Assembly: GCF_000510645.1 (NCBI RefSeq) | Contig: NZ_KI783301.1 | Span: 1,184,705 to 1,248,704, forward strand | Length of the DNA: 64,000 nt | From: Thermicanus aegyptius DSM 12793 | GTDB taxonomy: Bacteria; Bacillota; Bacilli; Thermicanales; Thermicanaceae | Direction of reading: 5' to 3' | Shown here: one piece after another, positions 20,071 to 46,466 of the stretch | Layout: each line of letters begins with the position of its first letter | Numbering within the stretch: the stretch's first letter is position 1 | Notes under the pieces: generated by a model | Told to the model about the DNA's origin: nothing | Database searches by the model: none | The model's input: only the letters and a program-made list of their open reading frames with translations | Position numbers and translations under genes: made by a program

Positions 20071-20239
20071 TACGAGTTAACTGCTTGTAATTCTTGTTCT
20101 TTTAAAGACCCTCTTACAATCTAGAGAGATGCATTTTAAATCTTCCTCGGTTTACAATTGGCCACTAGATAATTAGGGTGAACCCCATTCTCAAGCATGT
20201 TTATAGCGATTTTTAAAATGTAGTGGGGAGCGATTGTAT

Positions 20240-21265
20240 ATGAAAAAAAACAGATTATTGTTGATGTTTTTTAGCCTGCTCATTTCTTTGGCTTTGTATA
20301 TTCTCTTGTCACTGGTCGCCTCCAGCTATCAGGTGTCCAATTTTCATACCTATGAGGGAACAAAAGATGAAACGATTGTGAGTATCAGAAAACGAATGGC
20401 ACCGGATGTTGAAGAAATTGAAGCGATACGTAAAGAGTTTCTAGAATTGGTCAAAAGCTCCCCTCAGCTTACGATCGTCATGGATCCCGATTGGGATCTT
20501 ACCTTATATGTCCATGATCCTTTCGGCTCCTTTCGGGATGATTCGTTGGTAAAAGGAGAATATTTTAAAGCGGATGATTTTTTCTCCGATGAGAATCCTG
20601 TCATGGTAGAACAAGATAGTGCGGCCTTCCTGTTGGTGCGTGATGACGTTGCATACATCAACGGCTATCCAAGGCCTCTAAGAGCCATCTATTCGGAAGG
20701 CTATCCGCTTTTTGCTAATAAATATCAACAATATGATCATATCTCAACATTAGGATCGGCAACGGATTGGCAAGGAACATACTACTTCCGACATGCCGAC
20801 CAAAAGACGCTGACACGGTTTATCTCCATTTTTCAAAAGTACGGGTATCAAATGGATCCAATGAAGATGACTTCGAACATAAAGGATTGGTTTATGTTTT
20901 TTTTCCGCGATCCTAAACGTCTGGTGATAGGATTAGGCATTTTGTTTATTTACCTCTCCTATTTCGTCACCTATGATCTGCTCTTTTCCCGTCGGGAGAG
21001 AGAGTTTATGATTCATCGGCACTATGGCGCCACCAAAAATCAACTCATGATGAGAATCATGGGTTCGATCATCCCTTTCATCGGGTTTGGTGCCTTTTTG
21101 GGTTCGATGGTCGGGATCGGTTTAATGCTCGTGATTGGGGAGAGACCTGAAGCCTTCGTTTTTGCAGGGTCATTCATCTTACATATCCTGATGAGCGGTC
21201 TCTTTATCGCGATGGCGTATTACCGGCGTACGTTATGGAATCAACAAAGGGGCGTGACCTTATGA
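20240..21265 (+). CDS. FtsX-like ABC permease, first half-transporter
   Basis: 341 residues. One membrane segment at the N-terminus (about 8-26), an extracytoplasmic domain of about 180 residues, then three membrane segments at the C-terminus with FSRREREFMIHRHYGATKNQ before the second, a typical FtsX/MacB coupling-helix region. ATG 20240 has GGGGAG nine bases upstream. Its stop overlaps the ATG of the next permease (ATGA). It and the following gene together would make the heterodimeric membrane part of one exporter, comparable in layout to the single 669-residue permease at 7613-9622. Confidence 0.82.
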   Translation: MKKNRLLLMFFSLLISLALYILLSLVASSYQVSNFHTYEGTKDETIVSIRKRMAPDVEEIEAIRKEFLELVKSSPQLTIVMDPDWDLTLYVHDPFGSFRDDSLVKGEYFKADDFFSDENPVMVEQDSAAFLLVRDDVAYINGYPRPLRAIYSEGYPLFANKYQQYDHISTLGSATDWQGTYYFRHADQKTLTRFISIFQKYGYQMDPMKMTSNIKDWFMFFFRDPKRLVIGLGILFIYLSYFVTYDLLFSRREREFMIHRHYGATKNQLMMRIMGSIIPFIGFGAFLGSMVGIGLMLVIGERPEAFVFAGSFILHILMSGLFIAMAYYRRTLWNQQRGVTL

Positions 21266-22371
21266 TCCTGCAGTTCCGTTATGCGTTCAGAGATTTCAGG
21301 AAAAAGCCGGTCACAGCGGTTCTTTTTATGATTCAACTCTATATTGCCGGCTTTGTTCTATTATCGTTATCACATGAATTACTGTTTAGTCTGAATGGCA
21401 TTAAAACGATGAAGAATTTAGAGAAATATAATCTCATTTATTTCCACGTGCCTTTAAATGACCGAGGACTTACTTACTCGGGGGAAATCGATGAGATGCT
21501 TACGGAATTATTGGATCGCAAACATGCCGCCTACTCCATCGTTGATTCCATTGAATTAGATAACGAGTCGAAACAGAAGGTCGTTGTGGGCATGGGGGCT
21601 GCCTTTGCCGAGGTATTCGGACTTGCTCCCTATATCAAGAACTTAGAGATCTCGCATCCCATCGCCCTCCTCGGTGCCGATGTAAAGCATATCAACGTGG
21701 GGGAGAGCATCCCATTTGGAACCGTGAAACAAGTAAATGTGAAGGTGGCCGGGAGGCTCCCTCCTCATGCAAACTATATGAATCGAACCACGGTAGAAAG
21801 TTTGGATCAATCCGTGCTGATCCTGACCGGTAAAAAACAGATGATTGAATTATATGGCTATTATCATCTCAAAGAATGGATTCGCAATGTTGTTCTCCTC
21901 AATCCCAGTCAAACTACATTAATCGATTATGTATCGGCGTTTGGGAGGTCCAATTTCGGACTGACTCCTATTCAGTTTAACACGGCTGCCTTCAAACATT
22001 ACAACAATATTTATACGTTTACGGTGCGCGCATTTCTTTTTTTCTTCATCGCCATTCTCTTCGTGCTGATCAATCTCGTCGTGAATGTGTTGCAACTCGT
22101 TCGGCGGAATATGCGGGAATATGCGATTCATCTCTTATATGGCGCCCGTTACAGCCAGATTTATATAAGAACCATTCTATACATCTTCATGATGATCACG
22201 TTGCCGCTATTTTTAGCTTTCTATCAGATATGGAGCATGGGGATGGGTGAGAGGATTCCTGTCTTCTGGGTATTCACTGCGATTTTGGGAGTTGCTCTAA
22301 TCATTGCGGCTTTACCGATGATGCAAATCAAAGAGAATCAAATGCCGGCGGTTATAGGGAGGAGAGAATGA
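21262..22371 (+). CDS. FtsX-like ABC permease, second half-transporter
   Basis: 369 residues with the same plan as its neighbour: N-terminal segment, extracytoplasmic domain, and three C-terminal segments with RRNMREYAIHLLYGARYSQI as the coupling region. ATG 21262 has AAAGGGG nine bases upstream and overlaps the previous stop by four bases, so translation is coupled. No substrate can be inferred; MacB-like machinery exports peptides, lipoproteins or drugs, or transmits mechanical force. Confidence 0.82.
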   Translation: MILQFRYAFRDFRKKPVTAVLFMIQLYIAGFVLLSLSHELLFSLNGIKTMKNLEKYNLIYFHVPLNDRGLTYSGEIDEMLTELLDRKHAAYSIVDSIELDNESKQKVVVGMGAAFAEVFGLAPYIKNLEISHPIALLGADVKHINVGESIPFGTVKQVNVKVAGRLPPHANYMNRTTVESLDQSVLILTGKKQMIELYGYYHLKEWIRNVVLLNPSQTTLIDYVSAFGRSNFGLTPIQFNTAAFKHYNNIYTFTVRAFLFFFIAILFVLINLVVNVLQLVRRNMREYAIHLLYGARYSQIYIRTILYIFMMITLPLFLAFYQIWSMGMGERIPVFWVFTAILGVALIIAALPMMQIKENQMPAVIGRRE

Positions 22372-23081
22372 ATATGGAACCGATCATAAAAACCGTATCC
22401 CTTCAGAAAGTATATGACTCGGGCGGAAACCAAACGATTGCCGTCCAAGATGTAACCTTGGAGGTTGCCGAGGGGACGAGTGTGGCCATCACGGGCCCTT
22501 CCGGTTGTGGGAAAACCACCTTAGTAAACCTCATCGGATTCGTCACTCCCCCTACTTCCGGAGAATTATGGATCGAAAATGAGGCCGCCTCCTTGATTAC
22601 GGAAAAGAGGCGGGCGCAGTACAGGAATCGTTTCTTTGGTTACGTGGTGCAAGACTTCGCGCTCGTGGACGATTATTCGGTTTATGAAAATGTAGAGATC
22701 CCTTTACTCTATGCGCATCCCAGGTTAAATAAAAAAGAACGAAGGCGAAGAGTTGAAGAAATGCTGGATAAAGTGGGTCTCTTGGAAAAAAGGAAGGAAG
22801 AGATCGCCAATTTGTCGGGAGGACAAAAGCAACGCGTCGCGATTGCCCGTGCCTTGGTGAATCAACCGCGCGTTATTTTGGCCGACGAGCCGACCGGCTC
22901 CCTAGACTCCCGGACGAGTGAAGAGATCTTTTCACTCTTAATGGGTTTGGTGAAGGAAGGAAAAACATTGCTGATGGTTACGCATAATCCGGAACTGGCT
23001 CGGCGCTGTGATAGGGAGGTGAAAATGCTGGACGGGCGAATCCTCTCATCTGGTGCTTCGAACCAAGGGGAAAGAGGATGA
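22368..23081 (+). CDS. ABC transporter ATP-binding protein (MacB/LolD-like)
   Basis: 237 residues. Walker A GPSGCGKTT, Q-loop VVQDFA, signature LSGGQKQRVAIARAL, Walker B VILADEPTGSLDSRTS, H-loop THNPE: a complete FtsE/LolD/MacB-class ATPase. It overlaps the upstream permease stop by ATGA and GGGAGGAGAG lies just upstream, so the three genes form one coupled operon that ends at the terminator at 23139. Confidence 0.92.
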   Translation: MNMEPIIKTVSLQKVYDSGGNQTIAVQDVTLEVAEGTSVAITGPSGCGKTTLVNLIGFVTPPTSGELWIENEAASLITEKRRAQYRNRFFGYVVQDFALVDDYSVYENVEIPLLYAHPRLNKKERRRRVEEMLDKVGLLEKRKEEIANLSGGQKQRVAIARALVNQPRVILADEPTGSLDSRTSEEIFSLLMGLVKEGKTLLMVTHNPELARRCDREVKMLDGRILSSGASNQGERG

Positions 23082-23138: not shown

Positions 23139-23164
23139 GAACCGCGCTGCGGTTCATTTTTTGT
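23139..23164 (+). terminator. Terminator of the split-permease ABC operon
   Basis: GAACCGC pairs with GCGGTTC around GCT, followed by ATTTTTTG. A 32-codon frame from ATG 23078 runs through this hairpin; the hairpin reading is preferred. Confidence 0.85.
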
Positions 23165-23277
23165 TTATTTACTTAAAAAAAAGGATAGTGATTCACCTTT
23201 TTTTCATTTTCGGGGGATATAATGAACACAACGATAGAGGAAAAGGCCCGATACAGATACAAAGGAGGTTATTTCCG

Positions 23278-23994
23278 GTGAAGTGGTTTACTTGGAAAAA
23301 AGGAACGCTCTTTTTGTCATTGACAGCATTGTTGTTCGCCTTCACATTAACCCAACTGCCCCTAGCGAAGGCGGATGATCACGAAGGAGATGAACATGAG
23401 GGTTATGAACGAGACGGTTATGAGCATGATGAATGGTATGGAAAGGACGGGAATGAAGGCTACGATTACGGCGGGGTATGGAACTCGAACGATAACACCG
23501 GTGCCGGTAGCGGGATGCAGCTCCCCCCAACCAACTCGACGACTACTACCCTAAGTTGGAAGAGCTGGAACCGGGATGTAACCGACCTAACACCGGCTAA
23601 GTATGAGGCGCTTCCGATCCTTGAGCCGAAGAAAATTACGGTTCAGGTCGATGGGAGAGAGCAAAAGGGGATCTGGGCGCATCCGTCGAATGGGGAATTG
23701 CTTCTGCCGTTCAATCAAATTCTACCCGATTTACCCATACAAGTGGAGTGGTATGGTAAGGAGAAGTTCTTGGTCCTCCGCGGTGCGGAAGAGATTCTCC
23801 TTCTTAAGGTAGATCGCAAGGTGGCTTATGAAAATGGGGTGAAGGTGGCTTTACCTCAAGCACCGCAGATGATTCAACAGGATCTCTACTTACCTGTAAG
23901 CCTTCTGGCGACCGCCTTCCAGATGAATGTAACCTGGGATGAGGCAAATCAAAAGCTGGTCTTTACGACAAATGGAAATGGGGGAGCAAAATGA
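23278..23994 (+). CDS. Secreted copper-amine-oxidase-N-like (stalk) domain protein
   Basis: 238 residues from GTG 23278, which lies nine bases after AAAGGAGG. A signal peptide (LFLSLTALLFAFTLTQLPLA, cut near AKA) is followed by an acidic His/Tyr/Gly-rich stretch (DDHEGDEHEGYERDGYEHDE and more) that could bind cations. The C-terminal 110 residues resemble the copper amine oxidase N-terminal-like domain (PF07833; LYLPVSLLATAFQMNVTWDE), a common extracellular domain in Firmicutes not itself an oxidase. The next gene overlaps its stop by four bases. Confidence 0.75.
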   Translation: MKWFTWKKGTLFLSLTALLFAFTLTQLPLAKADDHEGDEHEGYERDGYEHDEWYGKDGNEGYDYGGVWNSNDNTGAGSGMQLPPTNSTTTTLSWKSWNRDVTDLTPAKYEALPILEPKKITVQVDGREQKGIWAHPSNGELLLPFNQILPDLPIQVEWYGKEKFLVLRGAEEILLLKVDRKVAYENGVKVALPQAPQMIQQDLYLPVSLLATAFQMNVTWDEANQKLVFTTNGNGGAK

Positions 23995-24470
23995 AAAAAG
24001 CGGCCAAATGGATCGTGGGGATTACAAGCGTGGCGACGTTAAGCGGAACCCTGGGACTGATTCAAATGGGGGCAAATACGGCACCGACCGATGAGAAGGC
24101 GACAACTCCCACAACAGGGACGGAACCCAATGCGGTAAAAACGGATGAGACCGCCAATTCGTCAGCCCTTCCTTTTGATTATGCGGTAGGGGTAAGGAAG
24201 GATTTTCCCACCATTCCCTATTATATCTCCGATGAGACGATGATTCAGGGGATGACGGAGGAGGAAGTGAAAGATTTCTTTCAATCGAGGGAAGCCTTCC
24301 TTGCCTCCCTGGATTGGGAGGAGTCGACAACGAGCCTCCCGCCTGAAAACCAAAATCCTACCGTCACCAATCCTTCGCCTGATCTTCAGTCGGGACCTAC
24401 GTATCAAGCGCCTTCGATTCAAGCGCCTTCGATCAAAAGCGACCGCAGGACGAGGAGTTCGCGCCGATGA
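23991..24470 (+). CDS. Secreted protein of unknown function in the ApbE operon
   Basis: 159 residues with a signal or anchor (VGITSVATLSGTLGLIQMGA), a Thr/Pro-rich linker, a short folded middle region (about 60-105) and a Pro/Ser/Arg-rich tail with QAPSIQAPSIKSDRRTRSSR. No family recognised. I see no FMN-binding-domain motif that ApbE normally flavinylates, although it is the obvious candidate partner by position. ATG overlaps the previous stop, and its own stop overlaps the apbE start. Confidence 0.65.
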   Translation: MKKAAKWIVGITSVATLSGTLGLIQMGANTAPTDEKATTPTTGTEPNAVKTDETANSSALPFDYAVGVRKDFPTIPYYISDETMIQGMTEEEVKDFFQSREAFLASLDWEESTTSLPPENQNPTVTNPSPDLQSGPTYQAPSIQAPSIKSDRRTRSSRR

Positions 24471-25465
24471 AGCGGAATGAGGCTATTCCCTTTGAACGGG
24501 TCACCTTTACGGCGATGAATTCGGAATTTCTCCTCTTGGGAGAGAAACGGCCTGAGGTGGGGAGCGCCCTTCCTTGGCAGAGAGAGATCCGGTTATGGTT
24601 CGCCTATGTGGAGAAACACTGTTCTCGTTTTTTGCCGGATAGCGAAGTCTCTCGCCTGAATGCTGCCCCGAAGGGGACCCCCGTCCTCCTCACCGAGACC
24701 TGTTACCGGCTCTTAACGGAGGCCTGGAATTATGCGATTAAGACCAATTTTCTGTTTCATCCTTTGGTCGGCAGACGGCTGGAGGAGATCGGATATGATC
24801 GTTCCTTTGATGAGATGAGGGAATTCAATGCATCGGACTCCGTCGTAGGATCCACTGAAGACCCTTCCTCGATCCGCCCCTCCTTTTCCATTGGCCCGTC
24901 CAGCCTTACCTTTATCCCCCACATGAAGGCGGTGATCCGTCGGACCGATGAGAAGGTAGACTTGGGAGGAATCGGGAAGGGATGGAGCGTCGATCGGGCG
25001 GCCGAATGGATGATGGAAAGAGGGATTACGGCGGGTCTGGTCGATGGGGGCGGAGATATCCGCCTCTGGCATAAACCGGGTTATCGCTGGAGAATTGGGG
25101 TAGAAGATCCCCTTGATCCGGATAGGGAGAGGATGCTCCTTTTTATGGAAAAGGGGGCCGTTGCCACCTCGAGCAAAGGATATCGGTGTTGGAAGCATGA
25201 AGGGAAGACGGTGCATCACCTCCTCAATGGGAGGACGGGATGTCCGGCCAACACAGGAGTATTGCAAGCCACCGTCATCGGCGAAACGGCGGCCGAAGCG
25301 GAGGTTTTGGCGAAGGTTCTCTGCCTTTTTGATCCCGATGAAGCAAAAAGGTGGGCGGAAAAGAATTTCCCCCATCTCGCTTACATCCTCTTCGACCAAG
25401 AAAACCGGATGATCATCAGTAACAATCTTGAAAAATATGCGAAGAAAGCGGTGATATGGAAATGA
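24467..25465 (+). CDS. apbE: ApbE-like FAD:protein FMN transferase
   Basis: 332 residues. ApbE transfers FMN from FAD to Thr/Ser of exported proteins. Visible features are FTAMNSEF at the N-terminus, VDLGGIGKGWSVDRA (flavin-binding GG-GKG motif), GLVDGGGDIRLWH, VATSSKGYRCW and HHLLNGRTGCPAN, which replaces the usual HIIDPRTG motif. The C-terminal TAAEAEVLAKVLCLF is also typical. No signal peptide is evident, so it may act in the cytoplasm or be a divergent member. It is coupled to the secreted gene before it and the membrane protein after it. Confidence 0.88.
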   Translation: MKRNEAIPFERVTFTAMNSEFLLLGEKRPEVGSALPWQREIRLWFAYVEKHCSRFLPDSEVSRLNAAPKGTPVLLTETCYRLLTEAWNYAIKTNFLFHPLVGRRLEEIGYDRSFDEMREFNASDSVVGSTEDPSSIRPSFSIGPSSLTFIPHMKAVIRRTDEKVDLGGIGKGWSVDRAAEWMMERGITAGLVDGGGDIRLWHKPGYRWRIGVEDPLDPDRERMLLFMEKGAVATSSKGYRCWKHEGKTVHHLLNGRTGCPANTGVLQATVIGETAAEAEVLAKVLCLFDPDEAKRWAEKNFPHLAYILFDQENRMIISNNLEKYAKKAVIWK

Positions 25466-26142
25466 CCGAGTTGCTTTTTCAATTTTTCACCTTATTTTCA
25501 ACCTGGAATCTTATAAGAACGTTAGGGATCACGGCTTACGTTCTCTTCTTTTTGGCTCTCCTCGCCGGTACGATCTATCGTATGGAGTTAAAATTGGGAA
25601 AATGGGCGGGACTTTTTCTTTTCGTCCATCAGAATGCCGGGTGGGTTGGCTTTCTTTTCGCGTTCGCCCATGCCTTTCTTCTCCTGTTCGATACCTATCA
25701 GCCGTTTACCCTAATGGAGATCCTCATCCCCTTTTCCGCTTCCTATGAGCCGATCTGGACGGGTTTCGGCACCCTGGCCTTTTTTCTGTTGGCCATCGTC
25801 CTTTATACTTCCGATTGGATGGGTAAGATAAAGAAAAGGGTTTGGAAATGGATTCACTTCCTCGTCTTTCCCGCCTATCTTCTCTTAACCCTTCACGGGT
25901 GGATGGTGGGAACAGACACCGAGACGTTTTGGGGGATGTTTTTATACGGCGGAACGTTCGTCACCCTCTTCGCTTTTCTCCTGGTTAGGATGTTGGTCGC
26001 CCTACAGAAAAAAGGAACTTCCGTACCTGAGAAGAAACCGGGCAGAGAGAAAGGCATCCCTCCTGTCGGGAGAAGGGAACTTGAGATGAGGGCGGGTATA
26101 AAAGAAACAAAAGGAACTTCGAAAGATGGAGCAATTTCATAA
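25456..26142 (+). CDS. Ferric-reductase-like heme membrane protein
   Basis: 228 residues with about six membrane segments. Four His sit in helices, two in FVHQNAGWVGFLFAFAHAF and two in WIHFLVFPAYLLLTLHGW; the spacing fits the bis-heme pattern of the ferric reductase/YedZ-like domain. The C-terminal 35 residues are a basic, charged cytoplasmic tail. Together with ApbE and two secreted proteins it suggests a trans-membrane electron path to a flavinylated or metal-binding extracellular partner (inference). It overlaps apbE by 10 bases. Confidence 0.8.
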   Translation: MEMTELLFQFFTLFSTWNLIRTLGITAYVLFFLALLAGTIYRMELKLGKWAGLFLFVHQNAGWVGFLFAFAHAFLLLFDTYQPFTLMEILIPFSASYEPIWTGFGTLAFFLLAIVLYTSDWMGKIKKRVWKWIHFLVFPAYLLLTLHGWMVGTDTETFWGMFLYGGTFVTLFAFLLVRMLVALQKKGTSVPEKKPGREKGIPPVGRRELEMRAGIKETKGTSKDGAIS

Positions 26143-36514: not shown

Positions 36515-36672
36515 TTAAGAAAATTTTAGATAGATTAAATGAAATTAGGTTGCCGTGATGCATAGGATGAAGTACTGTGAATAATGTTGAGTTGGGTAAG
36601 TGAAGAGAGAAAGGTTAAGCGTTTTTAGGATGATCAAATGCCATGACGTAGAGAGAGGGGGTGATTCGATCC
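36515..36672 (+). promoter_or_regulatory. Leader of the Pel-like exopolysaccharide operon
   Basis: About 160 bp between the dead hydrolase gene and pelF must hold the operon promoter. I found no convincing sigma-A pair and no match to the conserved core of either c-di-GMP riboswitch class. Just before pelF, AGAGAGGGGGTG is the ribosome binding site. Confidence 0.4.
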
Positions 36673-38415
36673 GTGACAAAGAAACTTTCCGTCTTATTTG
36701 CCACAGAGGGGACCTATCCGTTTCATCAGGGCGGGGTTAGTATTTGGAGCGATATTTTGACGAAACGATTGGATCGGGCCGAATTCGTGCTGTATAGCGT
36801 GATCATGAATCCCTTTGTGACCCAAAAATTCAGCATCGCAGCTGAAGCTTCTTTGATCAGCGTTCCTCTGTGGGGAACGGAAGAACCGGGAGAACATCTC
36901 CCCGTCCCTTTCTCAAAGATCTATATGGCCAAAAAAAATACGGAAGAAGGAGTGATCAAAGAGCGGTTTCTCCCTCTCTTTCGCCCGTTGATGGAAGAGA
37001 TTCTCACTGTCGAGAAACGTCCGGAGCATTTTGCCTCTCTTTTGAAGCAACTGTACGAGTACTTCAATGTGTATGAGTATAAAGTAAGTTTTAAATCCGA
37101 ACAGGTTTATGAAACTTATAAAGAAATGATTTACGCTTTTTGCCGGCGTGAGCATACCGATGTCGCCTTGCCCGAAGTGTACGACCTGCTTCAAAGTCTT
37201 GGCTGGATCTATCGCTTCTTAAATATACTAAATACTCCGATTCCCAAAACAGACGTCGCACATTCCTCCGCGGCCGCATTCTGCGGAATTCCTTGCGTAT
37301 TGTCGAAGATGATCTACGGGACGCCTTATCTTTTGACGGAACATGGAATCTACTTGCGGGAGCAATACCTCTCATTATCTCGCAACACCTATTCACCCTT
37401 TCTACGCACCTTCCTCGTCCGATTCATCCATTCCATCATTACGCTCAATTATGCCTATGCGGATCAAATCTCTCCGGTTTGTCACTACAACGCCCGTTGG
37501 GAATTACAGCTCGGAGTAAATCCCGCGAAAATCAAAGTGATCTACAATGGGGTTGATCCGGACGTATTTCAGGATTCCACGTCGATCCATCGGACTCAGC
37601 CTACCATCGTGACGGTGGCCCGAATTGATCCCGTCAAGGACATACTCACCCTAATGAGGGCGGCCAAACGGGTGCATCAGGAGATTCCGGAGGTTCGGTT
37701 TATGGTCTATGGTGAGATATCCGTACCGGAATATTATGAAGATTGTCTTCGATTGAGGGATGAATTGGGGTTAAGAGAGGTCGTTCACTTCGCCGGACAT
37801 ATGGGGAATATCGCTTCGGTATATCATGAAGGGGATGTGGTTCTTCTCTCCAGCATCTCCGAGGGATTCCCCTATTCCGTCATCGAAGCGATGATGTCGG
37901 GGAAGCCCGTGGTAGCCACCGATGTAGGCGGGGTCCGGGAAGCGCTGGGCGAGGCGGGGATCCTGGTTCCTCCCCGGGATGACGAGAAGATGGCGGACGA
38001 GATCCTTCATTTGCTTCGGAATCCGATGATGCGTGCCGATCTGGGAAAAGAGGCGCGGGAGAGGGCGTTAAACCTTTTTACGCTGGAGAAAATGCTTGCC
38101 CGATATATGGAGAGCTATGAAGAGCTGAGCGAAGGGTTACAGGGCGAGAAAACGGCGGAGCTTATCAGAGAGAGAGCAAAGCTCTATTTGGAACGAGGTT
38201 TTTCCTTCAAGGAATTTGGAATGTATGAAGAAGCGATCCACCAGATGAAGCTGGCGATTTTTGAAGACCCATTATCCCCTGTTGTTCCCTGGGCATTATC
38301 GGAAATCGCCGTGGCCTATCAACACATGGGTAGAACCGATCAAGCCCTGCACGAGATGGAGAAACTTCATGCATATCTTGGCATGCTTCAATTGATGAAG
38401 GAAGAAAGTGCATGA
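36673..38415 (+). CDS. pelF: PelF-type glycosyltransferase with TPR-like tail
   Basis: 580 residues from GTG 36673, nine bases after GAGGGGGTG. PelF is a cytoplasmic GT4-type UDP-sugar transferase that builds the Pel polymer. The N-terminal ATEGTYPFHQGGVSIWSD and the core VIYNGVDPDVF, TVARIDPVKD, SEGFPYSVIEAMMSGKPVVA are typical of PelF, including the E-x7-E catalytic motif. The normal protein is about 500 residues; here about 95 residues are added at the C-terminus (about 485-580) with helical TPR-like sequence (AHHQMK... pattern; YEEAIHQMKLAIFEDPLSPV). The addition may dock the following coiled-coil protein. It is the first gene of the operon. Confidence 0.9.
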   Translation: MTKKLSVLFATEGTYPFHQGGVSIWSDILTKRLDRAEFVLYSVIMNPFVTQKFSIAAEASLISVPLWGTEEPGEHLPVPFSKIYMAKKNTEEGVIKERFLPLFRPLMEEILTVEKRPEHFASLLKQLYEYFNVYEYKVSFKSEQVYETYKEMIYAFCRREHTDVALPEVYDLLQSLGWIYRFLNILNTPIPKTDVAHSSAAAFCGIPCVLSKMIYGTPYLLTEHGIYLREQYLSLSRNTYSPFLRTFLVRFIHSIITLNYAYADQISPVCHYNARWELQLGVNPAKIKVIYNGVDPDVFQDSTSIHRTQPTIVTVARIDPVKDILTLMRAAKRVHQEIPEVRFMVYGEISVPEYYEDCLRLRDELGLREVVHFAGHMGNIASVYHEGDVVLLSSISEGFPYSVIEAMMSGKPVVATDVGGVREALGEAGILVPPRDDEKMADEILHLLRNPMMRADLGKEARERALNLFTLEKMLARYMESYEELSEGLQGEKTAELIRERAKLYLERGFSFKEFGMYEEAIHQMKLAIFEDPLSPVVPWALSEIAVAYQHMGRTDQALHEMEKLHAYLGMLQLMKEESA

Positions 38416-38432
38416 TGAAAGGTGGCCAGATC

Positions 38433-39350
38433 ATGATCAAAAAAAGAAGTTTATGGGGTTATGCGCCGCTGTCGGTTGAAAAGGCAATGCAGGAGTTGAA
38501 TGCCCGGTTTGTTGAAGAGGAGGCTCGTCTCAGTCGGGAGAAGGAGCGGTGTATCCAGGAAATGAAAGAACTTCAATTGGAGTTGGGGGAGTCAATCGAA
38601 GATGTAGGTATCCCTTCCCATTCCCCGGAAGATCTTCCGATCAAGACCCCTTCCAGGAGCCTGGCCCATGACTGGTTTAAACAACTTCGCCATAGGCTGT
38701 TCGGCCTGGACGCCTCCCAGGTTCGCGCCATGATTCAAAGATCGATCTATGAGAAGCAGGCCATGCTTGCGGCGCTGGAAAACGAGATCGATCGATACAA
38801 ACAAGAGAGGGTGCGGTTATTCTCCGACTATGAAAAGAGAATCGTTCCCTCCCCTAGGGAAGAGGAAGCGGTTCGGTCGGCTCCTCCTGTTAAATCCGGA
38901 TATTGGGAAGAAATCGATCGTACGCTGAAGGAGATGAGAACTCCTCCACAATCCGATGAAGAGATGGCAGATCAGGTAGAGGTTTATGCCGGAGATGCCG
39001 CTCGAACGGCGGGTGGGCGGGAACAAGAGGGGAGGGAGGATCATCCGGCGGCAGTGGAGCAGACTGCGGCAACCGTCGATATGGCATTAGAGGAGAAAGA
39101 GGCGTCAAGTCCGCCGAGAGAAAAGAGGGAGATTCGACAGATCGACGTTCAACGGGAGGCGGAACTTTTAAAGATTCGATATATGCTTGGGAAATTGGCG
39201 GGCAGGGATCTCTATGATCGTGAAGGTCGTCCGATTATACGAAAGGGAGAACCGATTACCGAAGAAAAGATTCATAAGGCGGATGTTGCAGGCAAATTGG
39301 CCGACCTGATCATTCATATGAAAATGCCAGGAATGGAGGAAGATTTTTGA
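38433..39350 (+). CDS. Coiled-coil protein of the Pel-like operon
   Basis: 305 residues. The N-terminus SLWGYAPLSVEKAMQELN resembles the DivIVA-like start (GYxPxxVDxx), followed by coiled coil to about residue 45 and another at about 100-140. An acidic, low-complexity linker follows. The last 60 residues, LAGRDLYDREGRPIIRKGEP and AGKLADLIIHMKMPGME, look like a small globular domain I cannot name with confidence. ATG 38433 has AAAGGTGG seven bases upstream; the gene is stopped by TTGA overlapping the pelG start. A scaffold or polar-localising role is possible but only inferred. Confidence 0.65.
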   Translation: MIKKRSLWGYAPLSVEKAMQELNARFVEEEARLSREKERCIQEMKELQLELGESIEDVGIPSHSPEDLPIKTPSRSLAHDWFKQLRHRLFGLDASQVRAMIQRSIYEKQAMLAALENEIDRYKQERVRLFSDYEKRIVPSPREEEAVRSAPPVKSGYWEEIDRTLKEMRTPPQSDEEMADQVEVYAGDAARTAGGREQEGREDHPAAVEQTAATVDMALEEKEASSPPREKREIRQIDVQREAELLKIRYMLGKLAGRDLYDREGRPIIRKGEPITEEKIHKADVAGKLADLIIHMKMPGMEEDF

Positions 39351-40975
39351 GCTCGATTCATTACTTCAATCAGTCCGCAAAGCGGTTCAATCCGGGACTG
39401 TTTCACGAATTGGTGCAAGGGATCAAAGTAAAGCATGTAAACCCGGTCGATTCGTTCCATGTGACGGCGCTGTTGGAATCAATGGGTTGGACCGATGAGC
39501 TGGTGCAGGAACGGTTTAGAGTATCCGATCTATTTCAACTGGGCGAAGAGATCAAGTTTGAAATCGACGAATCGGCGGCAAAGTCACTCCCTTCCGAGGA
39601 GAAAAAAGATGGAATCCGTTCCGGTGTACGGATCGTAAAAAGCTTTCTCAGGGGACTCATCTTCTCCCTCCCGATGGCGATTTCCGTCCTTTCTATGCTC
39701 TATCTCAAATTCTCCCTATGGTCCTATGAATTCTTATCGATCGATCTGGCTACTGCAATTGCCATTGGCACCATTCTTAGCTTTATCGTCGTTGGAGGAT
39801 TTACGCAGGCGATCGCCCGTTACGGTTTCTTCTATATCTATCACGGTTATTACAGGATGGCACGGAGATCAACCTTTTTCTTCATCCGCGCAGGCTATCT
39901 GATCTCATTTTTGGTGACGCTCCTTCTCTTTCTCATCAATATGGTTTTTAACGTTTACCCCTTCGATCTATTTATCGTGATCGTATTCTATTTCTTCTTC
40001 TTAAATTTGATCTGGCTTTCGGTGACGGTGATGTACATTTTACAAAGGGAGCTTCTATTTACAGGATTAATTATTTTCGGGATCATGATGGTTTACTTAT
40101 TCTTTGTTCAATTCCGTATGGATATTATCGTATCTCAATTGATCGCCATCGGCATCGTATCCCTGATCGGATTGTTGATCGTCATCGTTCTATTTTACCG
40201 GGAGGAGAGAAAGAAAGAGAAAGGAATTGCCCCAAAGATGCCCCGCTTATCCTTTAGAGTCTACTCGGTGATGCCTTATTTCCTGTACGGTTTCTATTAT
40301 TTCTCCTTCTTATTTGTAGACCGGGTGATGGCGTGGTCGGCGGTTGACGTCTATCATCCGGAAAGTTCTTTTATGCCTTATTTCATCTGGTTTCGCGGTG
40401 ATTATGAATTAGGGCTTGACTTTGCCCTGTTGGCCTTGATGCTTCCCTTAGGAATGAATGAAGCGGTGGTTCAACGATTGATGCATTTCATTGAGCGGGC
40501 TCAAAAAAGTTTTCTCTTGCAACAGGTTGACGAGATGAGGGATTGGTTGTGGAAAAAGTATAAGCGGATGATCTTCGCTACCGTAGGCGTCTCGATCTTA
40601 AGCGCGTTGACCGTCTTCTTCATTCTGCTATTCTCCAATCAGCTGATGATGAGAATATTTGGCCGGCATCTGATCACAGACGGGGTTACCTATTTTGTCT
40701 TTATCGTGGCGGTCCTCTCTTACGTCATCTTGTCCGTCGCCCTCCTTAATGCGGTCCTCCTATTTGCCGTCTCTCAAGCGAAGATGGTGAATCAGGCATT
40801 GGTTCCGGCTCTTTTCATCAATATGATTCTCGGATTTCTTTTAAGCCGCTGGGTCAGTTATGAATATGCGGTCTTTGGCCTATTGGCGGGCAGCCTTCTC
40901 TTTCTGATTCTCTCTTTTCGGTCGGTGAAAAACCTGTTCCGTAAGGTCGATTTTTATCTCTATGCCATATTGTGA
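39347..40975 (+). CDS. pelG: PelG-type exopolysaccharide membrane transporter
   Basis: 542 residues. About 12 membrane segments, as in the MATE-like PelG inner-membrane protein that works with PelF. A 90-residue cytoplasmic N-terminal region (to about 95) precedes the first segment. The segment with RYGFFYIYHGYYRMARRSTF and the loop VDVYHPESSFMPYFIWFRGD are conserved-looking. The TTG start overlaps the previous stop (TTGA), with GGAGGAAG upstream. Association with PelF in the same operon strongly supports the call. Confidence 0.88.
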   Translation: MSSIHYFNQSAKRFNPGLFHELVQGIKVKHVNPVDSFHVTALLESMGWTDELVQERFRVSDLFQLGEEIKFEIDESAAKSLPSEEKKDGIRSGVRIVKSFLRGLIFSLPMAISVLSMLYLKFSLWSYEFLSIDLATAIAIGTILSFIVVGGFTQAIARYGFFYIYHGYYRMARRSTFFFIRAGYLISFLVTLLLFLINMVFNVYPFDLFIVIVFYFFFLNLIWLSVTVMYILQRELLFTGLIIFGIMMVYLFFVQFRMDIIVSQLIAIGIVSLIGLLIVIVLFYREERKKEKGIAPKMPRLSFRVYSVMPYFLYGFYYFSFLFVDRVMAWSAVDVYHPESSFMPYFIWFRGDYELGLDFALLALMLPLGMNEAVVQRLMHFIERAQKSFLLQQVDEMRDWLWKKYKRMIFATVGVSILSALTVFFILLFSNQLMMRIFGRHLITDGVTYFVFIVAVLSYVILSVALLNAVLLFAVSQAKMVNQALVPALFINMILGFLLSRWVSYEYAVFGLLAGSLLFLILSFRSVKNLFRKVDFYLYAIL

Positions 40976-41013
40976 TATTCCAAGGCGCTTCCCTATCAAA
41001 GGAGGTGGGAGCT

Positions 41014-43032
41014 TTGCCGTACGCATCCTTTTTCAATCAATTTTATCATTTAAGCCATTTTGCCTTTGCCTTTTGGCTTCTTTTCCTCTTTCTGCCGCGA
41101 TTTCTGTTTCGGCCGTCCGGCCCGGACGGCGGAGAGCGGTTTTTCCACCGGCTGGCGGGCATTGTTCTCCTCTATATCGGCGTCGGGTATACACTCGCAT
41201 TTATCAAATTGTATGAGGTATTGGCGCTTTTGGCCGTTCTGATCTTGATCATCTACCGCCGGAGCCTGTTTCGGAAGGGAGGAAGTCGGATCGGGCACAC
41301 CGCTTCTTTTCCGTGGGTTGTTTTCTACGATGCCCTCGATCTTGGCTTTCGGTTGAAGCTTTTTTGGCAGCGGTGGTTTTCTCATGAAGGGCGGCTTATG
41401 AGCCGGGGCCGGGAGAAGTTTTCACACTTCAGGCAGGAGCTGTCTTCAAAGATTCTCCTCTTGGCCGTCTTAGCCGCCGCAGCCTATCTTCGCTTTTATG
41501 ATGCTCTGATCTACGCGGCGCCTCCCTTGTCCGATTCCTATGTGACCTTAGCTTGGATGAAGTATATCGAGGAACGGGTTTTGTTCCACGACGGCATCTA
41601 TCCGCAGGGATTTCACATCACCCTCGCCACTTTGCATAAATTTTCTGGGATTGATACGTTATATGTTCTGAAATATATGGGGCCCCTCGTAGGGCTTTTG
41701 ATCACCGTTGGTTTATACTTCGTCACTTCCCGCTGGACCAAAAATCCTTTTGCCGGCATCGTGGCGGCTTCCTTTTACGGGATTTTTGGATTTATATGGC
41801 TCGGCACCGATTGGGAGAGGCAGGCGGCCACCAACTCGCAGGAGTTTGCCCTTCTCTTCCTCCTTCCCTCCCTCTATTTCTATAGCCGTTATTTGCAGGG
41901 CGGAAGGAGGGGAGATCTTTGGGCCGCTTGGTTTGGATATGCCGTGATCGGGTTGGTGCATAGCTTTGTTTTTCTCTATGCCGGGGTAGGGTTAGGCGCT
42001 TTTCTCTTTGCCGCTCTTCTATTCCACTTCCGCACCCTGGGGAAAAGGGTGCTTGTCGCCGCTTTGTCCGGCATCGGCGCCGTCCTCCTTTCGCTCCTCC
42101 CTCTTGGGTTAGGGAAACTGCTGGGGAGGGAGATTAATCACGGGGCGTCGGAATTCTTAAACTCTTATGGGGATGTTGCCTTTCCCGTCCTTCATCTGTG
42201 GGATTACGCGGGGCTTACCGCTCTTCTCCTCATGCTCTTGATCGGTCTGATCCTCCGCTTTACGTCCCATCAGGAGAGACCGGAGCTATTTGCGGGAATG
42301 ATGGCACTCTTTTTCTTCCTGCTGTATGAGCTGGGCGGCCATTATACCGGCAGTGTGGTCTTAGCGACCCGCAGCGGCAGCATCTGGGCTCTGACGGTAC
42401 CTCTCCTCTTAGGTTTTGCTTGGAGTTACCTTGCAGGCGGTTTGAGGAGGCTGAAGTTCTCCTCTAAACCGGCCCGGATCGAGGCGATCTTGCTATTTAT
42501 CCTTCTTGCGGGACTTGCCTACCATGAAGAGATAAAACCGATCCTCCCCTATAAGATGGAGTGGAATGCGGGGGTGGAACAATATTTACGGATCGCCGCC
42601 ACCCATCGCCCCCTCACTTGGATGATCGTCTCTCAAAATGAGGGGTATGATCTTGCCCTTGGAAATGGGTATCACATGTATTTGGGGGATTTTCTGGCAC
42701 GCTATGACCCGAATCGTCCTCCCCTGACGAGAGCGGATACCGAAGAGCCGGATCGCGATATTCCCACGGAGATCTATATCTATCATGAAAAAAAAGTTTT
42801 CCGGGTGAGCCGGTCGATGCAGATCTATCAGATCCTGGCTCCCACCTATGAGCGGCGGGAGGAAGAGAATCGGCGGTTTAAGGAATGGCTGACGGCTTAT
42901 CGGCAGGCAAACGGGGAACCGGAGATCTACTATGAGGATGAGGTGCTGGCCATCTATCATATTTCGCTCCCCAATCCGGAGAAGGAGAATCGAAGCCGTT
43001 TTTGGCAAGGCATGGCGCTAAGCGGTCGATAA
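41014..43032 (+). CDS. GT-C-like polytopic membrane protein
   Basis: 672 residues from TTG 41014, which has a near-perfect AAAGGAGGTG eight bases upstream; a GTG overlapping the pelG stop at 40972 lacks a site. About 13 membrane segments and a soluble C-terminal part of about 120 residues. The first extracytoplasmic loop reads LSDSYVTLAWMKYIEERVLF, and the next part GIYPQGFHITLATL; this D-containing first loop is like GT-C glycosyltransferases (ArnT/PMT fold), which use lipid-linked sugars. Which sugar is not clear. No equivalent in the proteobacterial pel locus. Confidence 0.6.
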   Translation: MPYASFFNQFYHLSHFAFAFWLLFLFLPRFLFRPSGPDGGERFFHRLAGIVLLYIGVGYTLAFIKLYEVLALLAVLILIIYRRSLFRKGGSRIGHTASFPWVVFYDALDLGFRLKLFWQRWFSHEGRLMSRGREKFSHFRQELSSKILLLAVLAAAAYLRFYDALIYAAPPLSDSYVTLAWMKYIEERVLFHDGIYPQGFHITLATLHKFSGIDTLYVLKYMGPLVGLLITVGLYFVTSRWTKNPFAGIVAASFYGIFGFIWLGTDWERQAATNSQEFALLFLLPSLYFYSRYLQGGRRGDLWAAWFGYAVIGLVHSFVFLYAGVGLGAFLFAALLFHFRTLGKRVLVAALSGIGAVLLSLLPLGLGKLLGREINHGASEFLNSYGDVAFPVLHLWDYAGLTALLLMLLIGLILRFTSHQERPELFAGMMALFFFLLYELGGHYTGSVVLATRSGSIWALTVPLLLGFAWSYLAGGLRRLKFSSKPARIEAILLFILLAGLAYHEEIKPILPYKMEWNAGVEQYLRIAATHRPLTWMIVSQNEGYDLALGNGYHMYLGDFLARYDPNRPPLTRADTEEPDRDIPTEIYIYHEKKVFRVSRSMQIYQILAPTYERREEENRRFKEWLTAYRQANGEPEIYYEDEVLAIYHISLPNPEKENRSRFWQGMALSGR

Positions 43033-43042
43033 GGAGGAGAAG

Positions 43043-44212
43043 ATGGGTTCTGTTCTAATTACCGATTCTTTATTGCGAAAATCATTGGCTTCGGTACGCT
43101 CCCTCGGAAGAAGGGGGGTGAAGGTCTATTGCTCTGATATCTCCCGACTTACCCCCTCCTCCTTCTCGCGATATTGCACGAAGGCGATGAAAAGCCCCGA
43201 TCCTGTTGAGGAGCCTGACTCGTATATGGATTGGTTGTTTGATGTACTCCGTAAGTTTCATATCACCGTCTACATGCCGATGGATGATGCGACGATGAAG
43301 CTTGCCGTCATGCACCAAAAGGAGCTTCTGTCGCACACCGCCTTCCTCCTTCCGCCGCTTCAGAGCTTTGCCATTGCGATGGATAAGCATAAAGCGGTAG
43401 GCTTTGCCCAATCTGCGGGATTAGATGTCCCAAGGACCTATATGCCCGATTCGCCCGACACGATCGAATCCTTTGCCCATGCTCTCCCCTATCCGGCGGT
43501 GATTAAGCCACGCCTCAGTTCGGGTTCTCGAGGGATCCGAATCGTACATAACCCGAAAGAGATGGTGGCTCAATATGGGCAGATTCATGCGCGCTACCCC
43601 TTTCCAATGGTGCAAGAGTACATTCTTCCGGGGGAGCGGATTGACGTATGCTTCTTATTTAACGCCGTAGGAGAGCCGAAACTTCATTTCGTTCAGCGGG
43701 AGATACGCCATTTTCCCGTCGATATTGGCCCAAGCACCGTCCAAGAGAGCGTTTGGATGCCGGAATTGGTGGAACGCATCCTGCAGGCGGTGAAGCATCT
43801 CCCTTGGTCGGGGGTGATTGAGTTTGAATGGATGCGAGATGGGAGGGACGGGAAGTTGAAATTGATGGAGATCAATCCGCGTTTTTGGAACTCACTCCAT
43901 CTTGCCATACGGTCAGGTGTCGATTTCCCCTGGGCCTATTATCTTTTGGCACAGGGGAAGGAGATGAAGCAAGGGGAAACTTATTCGATCGGTAAGATGG
44001 CGAAAAATATGCTGCCGGGAGACCTGCTCCACTTTATCACGAATCCGAAACGATTCCAGATGGATCCCCCGCTTTTTGGAAGGAAGGGATTCTATGATAT
44101 TGAGGATGACATCTTGTCGTGGCATGATCCGTTGCCTGCATTTGGTTTTTTTGCTGCATCATTCGCCTATCTCCTGAAGAAAAAGAAGCGGGAGATGCTG
44201 CTTAAACGATAG
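43043..44212 (+). CDS. ATP-grasp carboxylate-amine ligase
   Basis: 389 residues. The C-terminal two-thirds are an ATP-grasp fold: PYPAVIKPRLSSGSRGIRIV (nucleotide-binding loop), PMVQEYILPGERIDVCFLFN, and LMEINPRFWNSLHLA (metal-binding E-N). The N-terminal VLITDSLLRKSLASVRSLGR is the pre-ATP-grasp Rossmann-like domain. Such ligases add an amino acid or amine to a carboxylate and occur in surface polysaccharide clusters, where they decorate uronic acids or lipids. AAGGAGGAGAAG precedes the ATG; 10 bp follow the previous gene. Confidence 0.8.
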   Translation: MGSVLITDSLLRKSLASVRSLGRRGVKVYCSDISRLTPSSFSRYCTKAMKSPDPVEEPDSYMDWLFDVLRKFHITVYMPMDDATMKLAVMHQKELLSHTAFLLPPLQSFAIAMDKHKAVGFAQSAGLDVPRTYMPDSPDTIESFAHALPYPAVIKPRLSSGSRGIRIVHNPKEMVAQYGQIHARYPFPMVQEYILPGERIDVCFLFNAVGEPKLHFVQREIRHFPVDIGPSTVQESVWMPELVERILQAVKHLPWSGVIEFEWMRDGRDGKLKLMEINPRFWNSLHLAIRSGVDFPWAYYLLAQGKEMKQGETYSIGKMAKNMLPGDLLHFITNPKRFQMDPPLFGRKGFYDIEDDILSWHDPLPAFGFFAASFAYLLKKKKREMLLKR

Positions 44213-44223
44213 GAGGTGGTAAC

Positions 44224-45075
44224 TTGAATGTGAATGCCTTTACGGTGGATGTGGAGGATTGGTATCAGACGAATGATTTTAACTTTCCTGTATCGCGATG
44301 GGAACAGTTTGAGGATCGGGTGGAAGAAAGCACGCTCACCTTGTTGGGACTCCTATCCCGTTACCGGGTACGCGCCACTTTCTTTATTCTTGGGGCAGTG
44401 GCTCAAAAGCATCCCTCTCTCATTCGAAGGATCGCCGCAGAAGGGCATGAGATCGCCTGTCATGGGGGGTATCACCGCCTTTTAACGGAGATGAATGCCG
44501 GCCAATTTCGAGAAGAGATCCGGGAGGCGAAGGGAAGGATCGAAGATGCGGCCGGAGTGGAGGTTCGTTTTTTTCGCGCCCCTTCTTGGACGATCGGACC
44601 CGCAAATTATGATATGCTGCAAATTTTAGAGGAGGAGGGTTTTGCCGTCGATTCAAGCATACAGCCTTTCCGAACCCCTTTATCCGGCGTGGCGGGGGCC
44701 CCGGTTAAACCCTTTTACCCCATCATCGCGGGTAAGACTTTAAGGATCTTAGAGTTTCCTTCCACCGTGTTGAGGATAGGCGGTATGCCTCTTCCCTTTT
44801 CCGGAGGACTCTACTTGCGTGCGATGCCTTACTTCGTCATCCGCTGGGCGCTCCGCCAGGTGGGCCGCACGCGCGCCGGGATGGTTTATGTCCACCCATG
44901 GGAAGTAGATCAGGGTCAGCCAAGGCTTCGCGCCTCTCCCCTCATTCGTTTTGCCCATTATTACCATCTTGATCGGACGATCGGGAAATTGGACCGCCTT
45001 CTGCAGGATTTTCGTTTTGCTCCATTGGGTGAAGTGATTAGAGACCAATCCTATGAGGCTGTGGAACTGATATGA
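44224..45075 (+). CDS. Polysaccharide deacetylase with DUF3473 region
   Basis: 283 residues. NodB fold: FTVDVEDWYQ holds the Asp-Asp pair, IACHGGYHRLL the two metal-binding His, and FFRAPSWTIG the RxP motif. The second half, GGLYLRAMPYFVIRWALR and MVYVHPWEVDQGQPR, is DUF3473, found in the XrtA/PEP-CTERM-type deacetylase subfamily. There is no signal peptide, so it would be cytoplasmic. In Pel the deacetylase is part of PelA; here this separate protein may fill that role. TTG start with AGGAGGTGGTAAC. Confidence 0.88.
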   Translation: MNVNAFTVDVEDWYQTNDFNFPVSRWEQFEDRVEESTLTLLGLLSRYRVRATFFILGAVAQKHPSLIRRIAAEGHEIACHGGYHRLLTEMNAGQFREEIREAKGRIEDAAGVEVRFFRAPSWTIGPANYDMLQILEEEGFAVDSSIQPFRTPLSGVAGAPVKPFYPIIAGKTLRILEFPSTVLRIGGMPLPFSGGLYLRAMPYFVIRWALRQVGRTRAGMVYVHPWEVDQGQPRLRASPLIRFAHYYHLDRTIGKLDRLLQDFRFAPLGEVIRDQSYEAVELI

Positions 45076-46466
45076 AGACCTCCTCTTTCCTCTCAAAGAG
45101 CATCGGGGTTTCCCTAATTTTCATTCTGCTGGCCTGCATCTCTTTCTTTAAAGATGTATTGTTTGCGATCTATTTCGGTACGACTGCGGAGGCGGATCTC
45201 TTCACCCTCTCTTTCTTCCTTCCCGACATGGTGGGGAATAATCTCTTTGCGACCGCATTAGGAGCGGTAGCCGTTCCCTTCTTATCCATCTACCATGCAC
45301 GGGATGAACGGGAAAGATTGAGAGAGACGTTTGGCCGTTTGCTTCTCCACATAGGGCTCATTACCTTGGGCATTACGCTTCTCTTATATCTTATGCATCC
45401 ATTCATTCTTGCATTTCTCTTCGGATCCTTCGCTTCTGATCTGAAGCGGTTGGGAGAAGGAATCTACCTATTCTTGTTGCCCTCCGTTCTCTTCTTTTCG
45501 CTATCCGGGTTAGGGGCCGCTCTGCTTCAGTCGACAGGGAGGCTCTATCGGCAGGCCTTTGCCCCCATTCTGTTTAACGGCATTTTCTTAGTTTCCCTCC
45601 TGTTGGCCATCACCTTTCGGGTTTCAACCGATCTGGGAATCTATTGGGCAGGAGGTGGGATATTAACGGGTGCGTTAGGGATGCTTCTCTTTACCTTCGG
45701 GTCGTCGTGGAGATTCCTGCTTCCCTTGCGAGAGATGAAGCTTAGGCCTTGGGACGGGAATGTTGAAACCGATGGGGAGGTCAGGGAATTTTATCGGCTG
45801 CTTTTTTCTTATCTTCTTGTGCTGCTCTCCATGCAATCGGTGCTACTTATGGAACGATTTTTTGCCGGCGCGTTGGAGCCCGGGACGGTGGCGGGACTTC
45901 ACTATGCATACCGCCTGTCCCAGTTTCCCATATGGGTATTTATTGCCGCAATCAATACGGTTTTTCTTCCACTTTTGTCTGTCAAGCATGGAGAGGGGAA
46001 GAGAGATGAGGGGTTTGAGCTCTTGAAGAGGGCCGCTTTCCTTTCCCTCGCCATTGCACTCCCTTTCTCCCTTCTCTTTTTCTTCGCGCGGGATGCCTTG
46101 ATCCGCATCTTGTTTTTCTACGGTTCCTTTAATGAGAGCTCTCTTCGCATTACAAGCGGGATCTTGGCAGGTTACGCCCTATCCGTTCCTTTCCAAGCAG
46201 TATCGGCCGTCGGTTTACGTTACTTTTTATCACGACGGAGGATGGTTCGGGTTCTGTTGATCTATCTTCTTACGTCCCTCGTCAATATCCTTCTAGATGG
46301 ATGGTTGGTCCATCTTTGGGGTTCACCGGGTATCGGATGGGGGATGGCGATCTCCTCTCTCTTGAATGCCGTTCTAATCTATTGGGTCGCGGTGCGTGAT
46401 GATCAAATCCATCAGAAACAGGGAGGTTCCTATGAAAGAAGTGCTCGTCATTATTCCGTCCTATAA
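45072..46466 (+). CDS. MurJ/MviN-type lipid-linked oligosaccharide flippase
   Basis: 464 residues and about 13-14 membrane segments. The N-terminal FFKDVLFAIYFGTTAEADLF is the MurJ-family start and LPDMVGNNLFATALGAV continues the family pattern. It is shorter than MurJ (about 510 residues) and lies in a polysaccharide operon, so it is more likely an exopolysaccharide precursor flippase than the cell-wall lipid II one. The ATG overlaps the deacetylase stop (ATGA); its end overlaps the next gene by 35 bases. Having both this flippase and PelG suggests two transport steps. Confidence 0.82.
   Translation: MKTSSFLSKSIGVSLIFILLACISFFKDVLFAIYFGTTAEADLFTLSFFLPDMVGNNLFATALGAVAVPFLSIYHARDERERLRETFGRLLLHIGLITLGITLLLYLMHPFILAFLFGSFASDLKRLGEGIYLFLLPSVLFFSLSGLGAALLQSTGRLYRQAFAPILFNGIFLVSLLLAITFRVSTDLGIYWAGGGILTGALGMLLFTFGSSWRFLLPLREMKLRPWDGNVETDGEVREFYRLLFSYLLVLLSMQSVLLMERFFAGALEPGTVAGLHYAYRLSQFPIWVFIAAINTVFLPLLSVKHGEGKRDEGFELLKRAAFLSLAIALPFSLLFFFARDALIRILFFYGSFNESSLRITSGILAGYALSVPFQAVSAVGLRYFLSRRRMVRVLLIYLLTSLVNILLDGWLVHLWGSPGIGWGMAISSLLNAVLIYWVAVRDDQIHQKQGGSYERSARHYSVL

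Follow-up and report, generated by a model that had tools for sequence, protein, structure and literature searches.

A predicted C-terminal flavin acceptor in an ApbE operon of Thermicanus aegyptius

Introduction

Where does an ApbE flavin transferase deliver its flavin mononucleotide (FMN) when no FMN-binding domain is encoded beside it? The question is raised by a four-gene operon at 23278-26142 of a 64,000-nucleotide stretch of Thermicanus aegyptius DSM 12793 (contig NZ_KI783301.1), referred to below as the window, which spans 1.18-1.25 Mb of a genome of 3.66 Mb assembled as one contig. In order, the operon encodes a stalk-domain protein, a protein of 159 residues (P159), ApbE and FerR, a ferric-reductase/MsrQ-like membrane protein, with successive overlaps of 4, 4 and 10 bases; all window features given below lie on the forward strand. 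The initial annotation, made from the letters of this stretch, had already seen one operon of ApbE, a FerR-like protein and two more overlapping genes. The overlaps agree with this, as does the recurrence of the arrangement across the class, which also argues that it did not arise by chance.

In the portion of PMC12052999 drawn on here, the ApbE motif is D-x-x-[S/T]-G-A-[S/T], with FMN placed on the last residue. Seven residues are enough, and replacements of the G and A are tolerated with a partial loss. P159 is likely to be one of a widespread class of ApbE substrates, so far undescribed, that carry such a motif as a flavin-tag tail, with FMN on Ser157 and electrons supplied by FerR. Members of this class would be single-pass anchored, intrinsically disordered proteins whose extreme C-terminus serves as a natural flavin tag. 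The neighbouring ApbE would move FMN from flavin adenine dinucleotide (FAD) onto the last Ser or Thr of the tail, Ser157 in P159, so that the flavin would sit on a flexible tether and not in a folded FMN-binding domain.

The tail of P159

P159 (23991..24470), the proposed FMN acceptor, matches no family in Pfam (up to E=1) or NCBIfam. Its AlphaFold2 model, built from 8 input sequences with a mean predicted local distance difference test score of 59.6, contains helices at residues 4-27 and 90-106, and the rest is of low confidence, with no folded domain. The first helix (24000..24071), also visible in the hydropathy profile, is the predicted membrane anchor. The linker is predicted to be unstructured, and an LDWEE motif at residues 107-111 (24309..24323) follows the second helix. 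The protein ends in D151-R-R-T154-R-S-S157-R-R (24441..24467), a tail that fits D-x-x-[S/T]-x-x-[S/T]. By its position in the motif, Ser157, encoded at 24459..24461, is the predicted FMN attachment site. Measured against the full D-x-x-[S/T]-G-A-[S/T], the D, T and S positions of P159 fit, but the G and A positions do not.

An FMN_bind domain is lacking in P159, as PF04205 is unmatched and no such fold appears in the model. The earlier statement that the operon holds no visible flavinylation target is thus true for folded domains only: no protein of the operon has a PF04205 domain, but the tail of P159 carries a motif-like heptapeptide. Similarly, of the two proteins then described as secreted, the stalk protein does have a signal peptide, whereas P159 is better called single-pass anchored than freely secreted.

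Conservation of the tail in relatives of the operon

Relatives of FerR are present in 105 of 398 genomes of the class. The usual gene order near them is [stalk]-small protein-ApbE-FerR; in some cases, genes for a response regulator and a histidine kinase come next. The small protein keeps the same position and build: its N-terminus is short and rich in Lys, a single membrane helix follows, and a low-complexity linker leads to a conserved end. Because the linker is of low complexity, this tail family can be detected only via its neighbours. A search with P159 as a single sequence found, among 100 relatives, a match in the window's own genome alone, and a search of plasmids with it gave no match. 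For comparison, 80 loci (L039-L118) were chosen from the rows of the FerR search and from ApbE rows to span families, and not at random; a few genomes contribute more than one locus. From each locus, the longest anchored open reading frame (ORF) with its stop just upstream of apbE, or of the FerR gene if no apbE was near, was picked. This rule gave 68 picks in 81 loci, so that a P159-type family beside other apbE genes, for which the initial annotation had proposed a search, is indeed found as an anchored small protein in a conserved slot.

The end of these proteins is far from random. Ser or Thr is the last residue in 56 of the 68 picks, and [S/T]xx[S/T] is terminal in 55, or in 62 if up to two extra residues are allowed. 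Asp also stands at the first motif position in 25 picks, and eight end in exactly [S/T]GA[S/T]. When the sequence after the anchor was shuffled 2000 times, the strict form appeared in a mean of 4.0 of the 68 proteins (maximum 12) and the relaxed form in a mean of 11.1 (maximum 22). Among other ORFs of at least 150 amino acids in the same loci, the strict form was found in 26 of 950. As a check on inflation by shared ancestry, one protein per genus was counted, with genus labels assigned by hand; 30 of 37 match, against a shuffle mean of 2.1 and a maximum of 10. The full D-x-x-[S/T]-G-A-[S/T] is present in the relatives at L100 and L109, and D-x-x-S-G-A-S ends the proteins of L109 and L086; examples of exact tail ends are ...DFRSGAS and ...SRTGAS. 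After the anchor, 27 of the 68 picked relatives have [DEN]W.

In addition, one or two short anchored proteins with TGAS, TSAS or TKAS at or near the end are encoded near FerR or ApbE at L104, L105, L108, L111, L147, L162 and L177. Those of the first four loci look coiled-coil-like. These arrangements are possible two-flavin versions.

The optional stalk protein was also considered as an acceptor. It was rejected, as its relatives occur in only 10 of the 81 loci examined and the window copy, inspected by eye, contains no [S/T]GA[S/T].

The operon ApbE

The ApbE of the window (24467..25465) is a clear member of its family, matching PF02424 with E=1.8e-50 and 172.4 bits against a curated cut-off of 25.6. 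Its S235, H251 and E279 align with the published Ser241-His257-Asp285 triad of Vibrio cholerae ApbE. Ser235 and His251 are conserved at the right spacing, the Asp position is taken by Glu279, and the Thr four residues further on is replaced by Lys283, whose codon (25313..25315) specifies an invariant Lys in 26 operon ApbEs. The initial annotation correctly read another motif of this protein as NGRTGC and regarded it as altered. Across the family, conservation of the D and P of this motif reaches only 87% and 77%, and the related stalk-bearing clade repeatedly shows NG or DG there. In the alignment, the NGRTG motif is typical of the clade and not a defect; judged in the same way, the departure of this ApbE from canonical ones lies in E279 and K283.

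Lys283 goes with FerR. Among 171 ApbEs, Lys occupies this position in 104 of the 109 with FerR nearby, against 12 of the 62 without. When sampling went by ApbE alone, 33 of 38 ApbEs with FerR and 10 of 41 without it had the Lys (Fisher p=2e-8). ApbEs paired with FMN_bind proteins keep the canonical D...T wherever the region was displayed together with an FMN_bind neighbour. The Asp and Thr of canonical ApbEs bind Mg. In the substrate NqrC, a Lys activates the acceptor Thr; by analogy, and purely as speculation, Lys283 might supply the acceptor-activating Lys where the substrate has no fold.

The replacement of the canonical D and T of the acidic motif by E279 and K283 could also be taken to mean that this ApbE is an FAD pyrophosphatase or a scaffold and not a transferase. 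This is highly improbable, because 26 aligned relatives show no variation at S235, H251 and other core positions, and a hydrolase would leave the tail motif unexplained.

Candidate targets in the genomes

If the operon ApbE is a transferase, most genomes offer it few known substrates. Genome-wide domain counts cover 80 of the 105 genomes with FerR relatives. PF04205 is absent from 62 of these 80, and 60 of the 62 have ApbE; by row count, exactly one ApbE match is present in 53 of the 80. In the 62 genomes without PF04205 together with the window's genome, PF03116 is found in 4 of 63 and DUF2271 in 1 of 63.

This shortage bears on the proposal that the tail is a docking signal and P159 an assembly factor or small subunit that joins ApbE and FerR, with FMN going elsewhere. 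A separate motif, LDW[E/T], is conserved in the linker, and the tails contain extra Arg, Lys or His beyond the published motif, both of which would suit docking. Against it, conservation in the tail falls on the residues of the published motif, as the counts of terminal Ser or Thr and of exact [S/T]GA[S/T] illustrate, and most genomes have no FMN_bind, DUF2271 or NqrB-type protein that could serve as an alternative target. A pure docking role is therefore unlikely.

The single DUF2271 protein counted above occupies the very slot of the tail protein, at L072 (4743-5465, E=6.8e-12). Its sequence ends in TTSSQGS and lacks an internal [S/T]GA[S/T]; its flavinylation site may have shifted out of the domain to the C-terminal end. 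An FMN_bind protein swapped into the slot was sought in the examined loci, and none was found.

Loss of the two genes also coincides. Only two of the 80 genomes (G211 and G284) are without ApbE, and both have FerR with no tail protein beside it. In a third genome, G309, apbE is reduced to a remnant and the tail gene is gone. G081 has one ApbE (at L113) and two further tail genes at other FerR loci, and all of these tails end in R-[S/T]-RAS.

The window's genome does encode one PF04205 protein (G000:C1:2857612), and the operon ApbE might flavinylate this distant protein. It lies 1.6 Mb away and adjoins a second ApbE, which is canonical (ADAFST), and an RnfD-like protein. Such pairing recurs in other genomes: an FMN_bind-like neighbour stands at 16 of 20 second-ApbE loci examined, L133 is a seventeenth by PF04205 search, and for L134, L135 and L138 no FMN_bind neighbour was shown. 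Since this FMN_bind protein has its own canonical ApbE, and since 62 of the 80 genomes have none at all, a distant target has a very slim likelihood. In this second cluster (G000:C1:2857000-2861000; L004 7043-10852), the anchored FMN_bind protein has a linker of five near-identical repeats, and its ApbE is without a visible signal peptide.

The suggestion of the initial annotation that P159 is a new FMN acceptor thus gains comparative support from the conserved slot, the tail motif, the shortage of targets, co-loss and the DUF2271 swap, and remains a prediction from these comparisons.

Topology and proposed electron transfer

In 64 of 68 tail proteins, the more positive flank precedes the anchor, which predicts that the tail faces outwards. 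An argument for the same orientation is the tail protein of L080 (1540-2199), in whose linker a peptidoglycan-binding domain was identified (PF01471, E=1.3e-19); with this domain between the anchor and the tail, the flavin would sit in the cell wall. The tail proteins of L081 and L089 look similar, the domain being Pfam-confirmed for L080 alone.

FerR (25456..26142; PF01794, E=3.3e-7) has four His residues (58, 72, 134 and 147) that are invariant in 25 relatives, as expected for two hemes. Electrons drawn from the quinone pool, or else from a reductase in the cytosol, would pass through these hemes to the tethered FMN; as a one- or two-electron carrier, the flavin would deliver them to an acceptor outside. 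Our guess is that this acceptor is ferric iron or an acceptor in the wall or on the surface. The stalk protein may serve as a partner for docking or for binding metal. What the comparisons establish is the operon and its conservation, the tail motif, the target shortage, co-loss, and the conservation of catalytic and heme residues; flavinylation, the acceptor residue, the electron flow and its direction, the side of the cell and the final acceptor are all inferred.

Points that weigh against a tail acceptor

Several observations speak against this reading. The first concerns the location of the enzyme. A hydrophobic N-terminal segment, sought in the 45 codons upstream of the first conserved motif, was present in 0 of 64 operon ApbEs, and none is visible as a signal peptide in the window ApbE. 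Signal-less enzymes conflict with a simple extracytosolic reaction. With the tail outside, flavinylation would take place in the cytosol, before or during export; probably, FMN is attached inside and carried out on the polypeptide, or ApbE itself reaches the outside by some other route.

The second point is the window tail itself, which is among the less canonical ones, with RS in place of GA and two Arg past the predicted acceptor. FMN on P159, or on any of its tail relatives, is moreover predicted purely from comparison. Thirdly, the ribosome-binding site of the window apbE falls within the codons of the P159 tail, as it does at several other loci, and tail conservation could be a by-product of this overlap. 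At 30 of 64 loci, however, that site lies wholly downstream of the coding part of the small gene, and the motif is kept in 27 of these 30. In 51 of 55 cases, the codon for the last Ser of the tail has the form TCN and so is not rich in purines. The persistence of the motif at non-overlapping loci brings the by-product explanation close to refutation, and its probability is next to nil.

Fourthly, the tail is not universal. Six of the 68 picks are without the motif. At three of these loci, similar endings occur nonetheless: one gene further upstream in L114, an ORF matches; downstream in L108, there are ORFs with near-terminal TKAS and TSAS; and in L106 TSAS stands four residues from the end. 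A further 13 of the 81 loci gave no pick. On hand reading, six of them have a tail (L054, L065, L086 with ...SPDVQSGAS, L097, and L104 and L105, both with ...VTGAS), one (L079) is cut by a contig end, and in six (L050, L060, L061, L099, L110 and L112) no tail was found. Finally, repeated evolution of Lys283 with FerR is not supported: the tree requires just 7 changes, and the sign test on it is uninformative. With so few changes, the association is largely one clade-level trait.

Distribution beyond the sampled loci

A scan of named genomes with the window ApbE alone gave no match, and these genomes were reached by an ApbE alignment search instead of a single sequence. The tail gene is present in Anoxybacillus, Cohnella, Viridibacillus, Lysinibacillus, Brevibacillus and Exiguobacterium. 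In Chloroflexota and Actinomycetota, ApbE of the Lys type occurs with FerR and with nearby anchored proteins that end in ALRSGGS, PLRTGGS or FSSGGS. Others have STGAS or TTGAS a few residues before the end, for example STGAS-RAVR; the tails of these two phyla were judged by eye, outside the rule-based counts.

A broader reading, in which bacteria have a further architecture of protein-bound flavin for electron transfer, would cover all of these cases. A terminal FMN on a disordered anchored tether, in some cases a peptidoglycan-binding one, would be added in the cytosol by a signal-less Lys-type ApbE, exported, and left to swing between a bis-heme cytochrome and acceptors outside, in at least three phyla and as the answer for a share of the genomes with orphan apbE genes. 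We regard the chances of this wider picture as evenly balanced.

Relation to known flavinylation systems

Among the systems covered by the portions of the papers drawn on here, the nearest in gene content are the MsrQ-like ones, in which PF01794, apbE and a gene for an FMN-binding domain protein are clustered (Meheust et al. 2021, PMC8238504). These clusters are described as broadly conserved in Actinobacteria and infrequent elsewhere. The likeness lies in a bis-heme protein of the ferric-reductase family (PF01794) clustered with apbE and an outward-facing partner. The difference is that, in place of the FMN-binding domain gene, the operons described here have one for an anchored disordered protein whose motif is C-terminal. 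The 2021 survey dropped genes without a signal peptide or lipidation site, whereas the operon ApbEs described here have no signal peptide; this filter may explain why the tail class was missed. About 4% of the genome set of that survey had apbE and no known substrate, and it states that substrates remain unidentified (PMC8238504).

As far as these sources go, the closest precedent for the P159 tail is found in FMN_red substrates (Huang et al. 2024, PMC11334425), which have an unstructured C-terminal extension. Both carry the flavinylation motif in an unstructured C-terminal region, but the FMN_red extension adjoins a folded flavin-binding domain, which P159 does not have. DUF2271 (PF10029) is a known ApbE substrate class, represented in the tail slot by the L072 protein; P159 differs in having no DUF2271 domain, and the L072 member in lacking an internal [S/T]GA[S/T]. 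Engineered flavin tags (Tong et al. 2021), which according to the part of the review PMC12052999 drawn on here work best at a terminus, share the seven-residue terminal motif. There the motif is placed artificially on cargo, whereas the P159 class would be its natural counterpart. In the main texts of the open-access literature searched, no description of a tail-only ApbE acceptor was found.

If the tail class is real, it would explain many ApbEs without a known target and provide a concrete substrate class, with a named residue, for orphan apbE genes. It would also imply that electron-transfer flavins need no binding fold, supply naturally occurring templates for flavin tags, and pose the question by what path a flavin added by a signal-less enzyme gets outside.

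Other features of the operon and its surroundings

The first gene of the operon (23278..23994) encodes the secreted stalk-domain protein, with a signal peptide, an acidic and His-rich linker and a Cu_amine_oxidN1 domain (PF07833, E=1e-15). It starts with GTG, nine bases downstream of an AGGAGG ribosome-binding site (23263..23268). Directly upstream of the operon, at 20234-23081, lies an ATP-binding cassette (ABC) transporter made up of an ATPase and two large permease-like proteins, the latter two without a Pfam match at 1e-5. A terminator-like hairpin (23139..23155) separates these genes from the operon; it is weak evidence alone, because the hairpin search gave 7 hairpins against 4.8 expected in shuffles.

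Further downstream, the gene run at 36661-47172 encodes a DUF3492 glycosyltransferase, an ATP-grasp protein, a polysaccharide deacetylase, a MurJ-like flippase and a family 2 glycosyltransferase, together with three large proteins that have no Pfam match at 1e-5. It looks like an exopolysaccharide cluster of the PelF type. The AT skew is strongly negative across this stretch.

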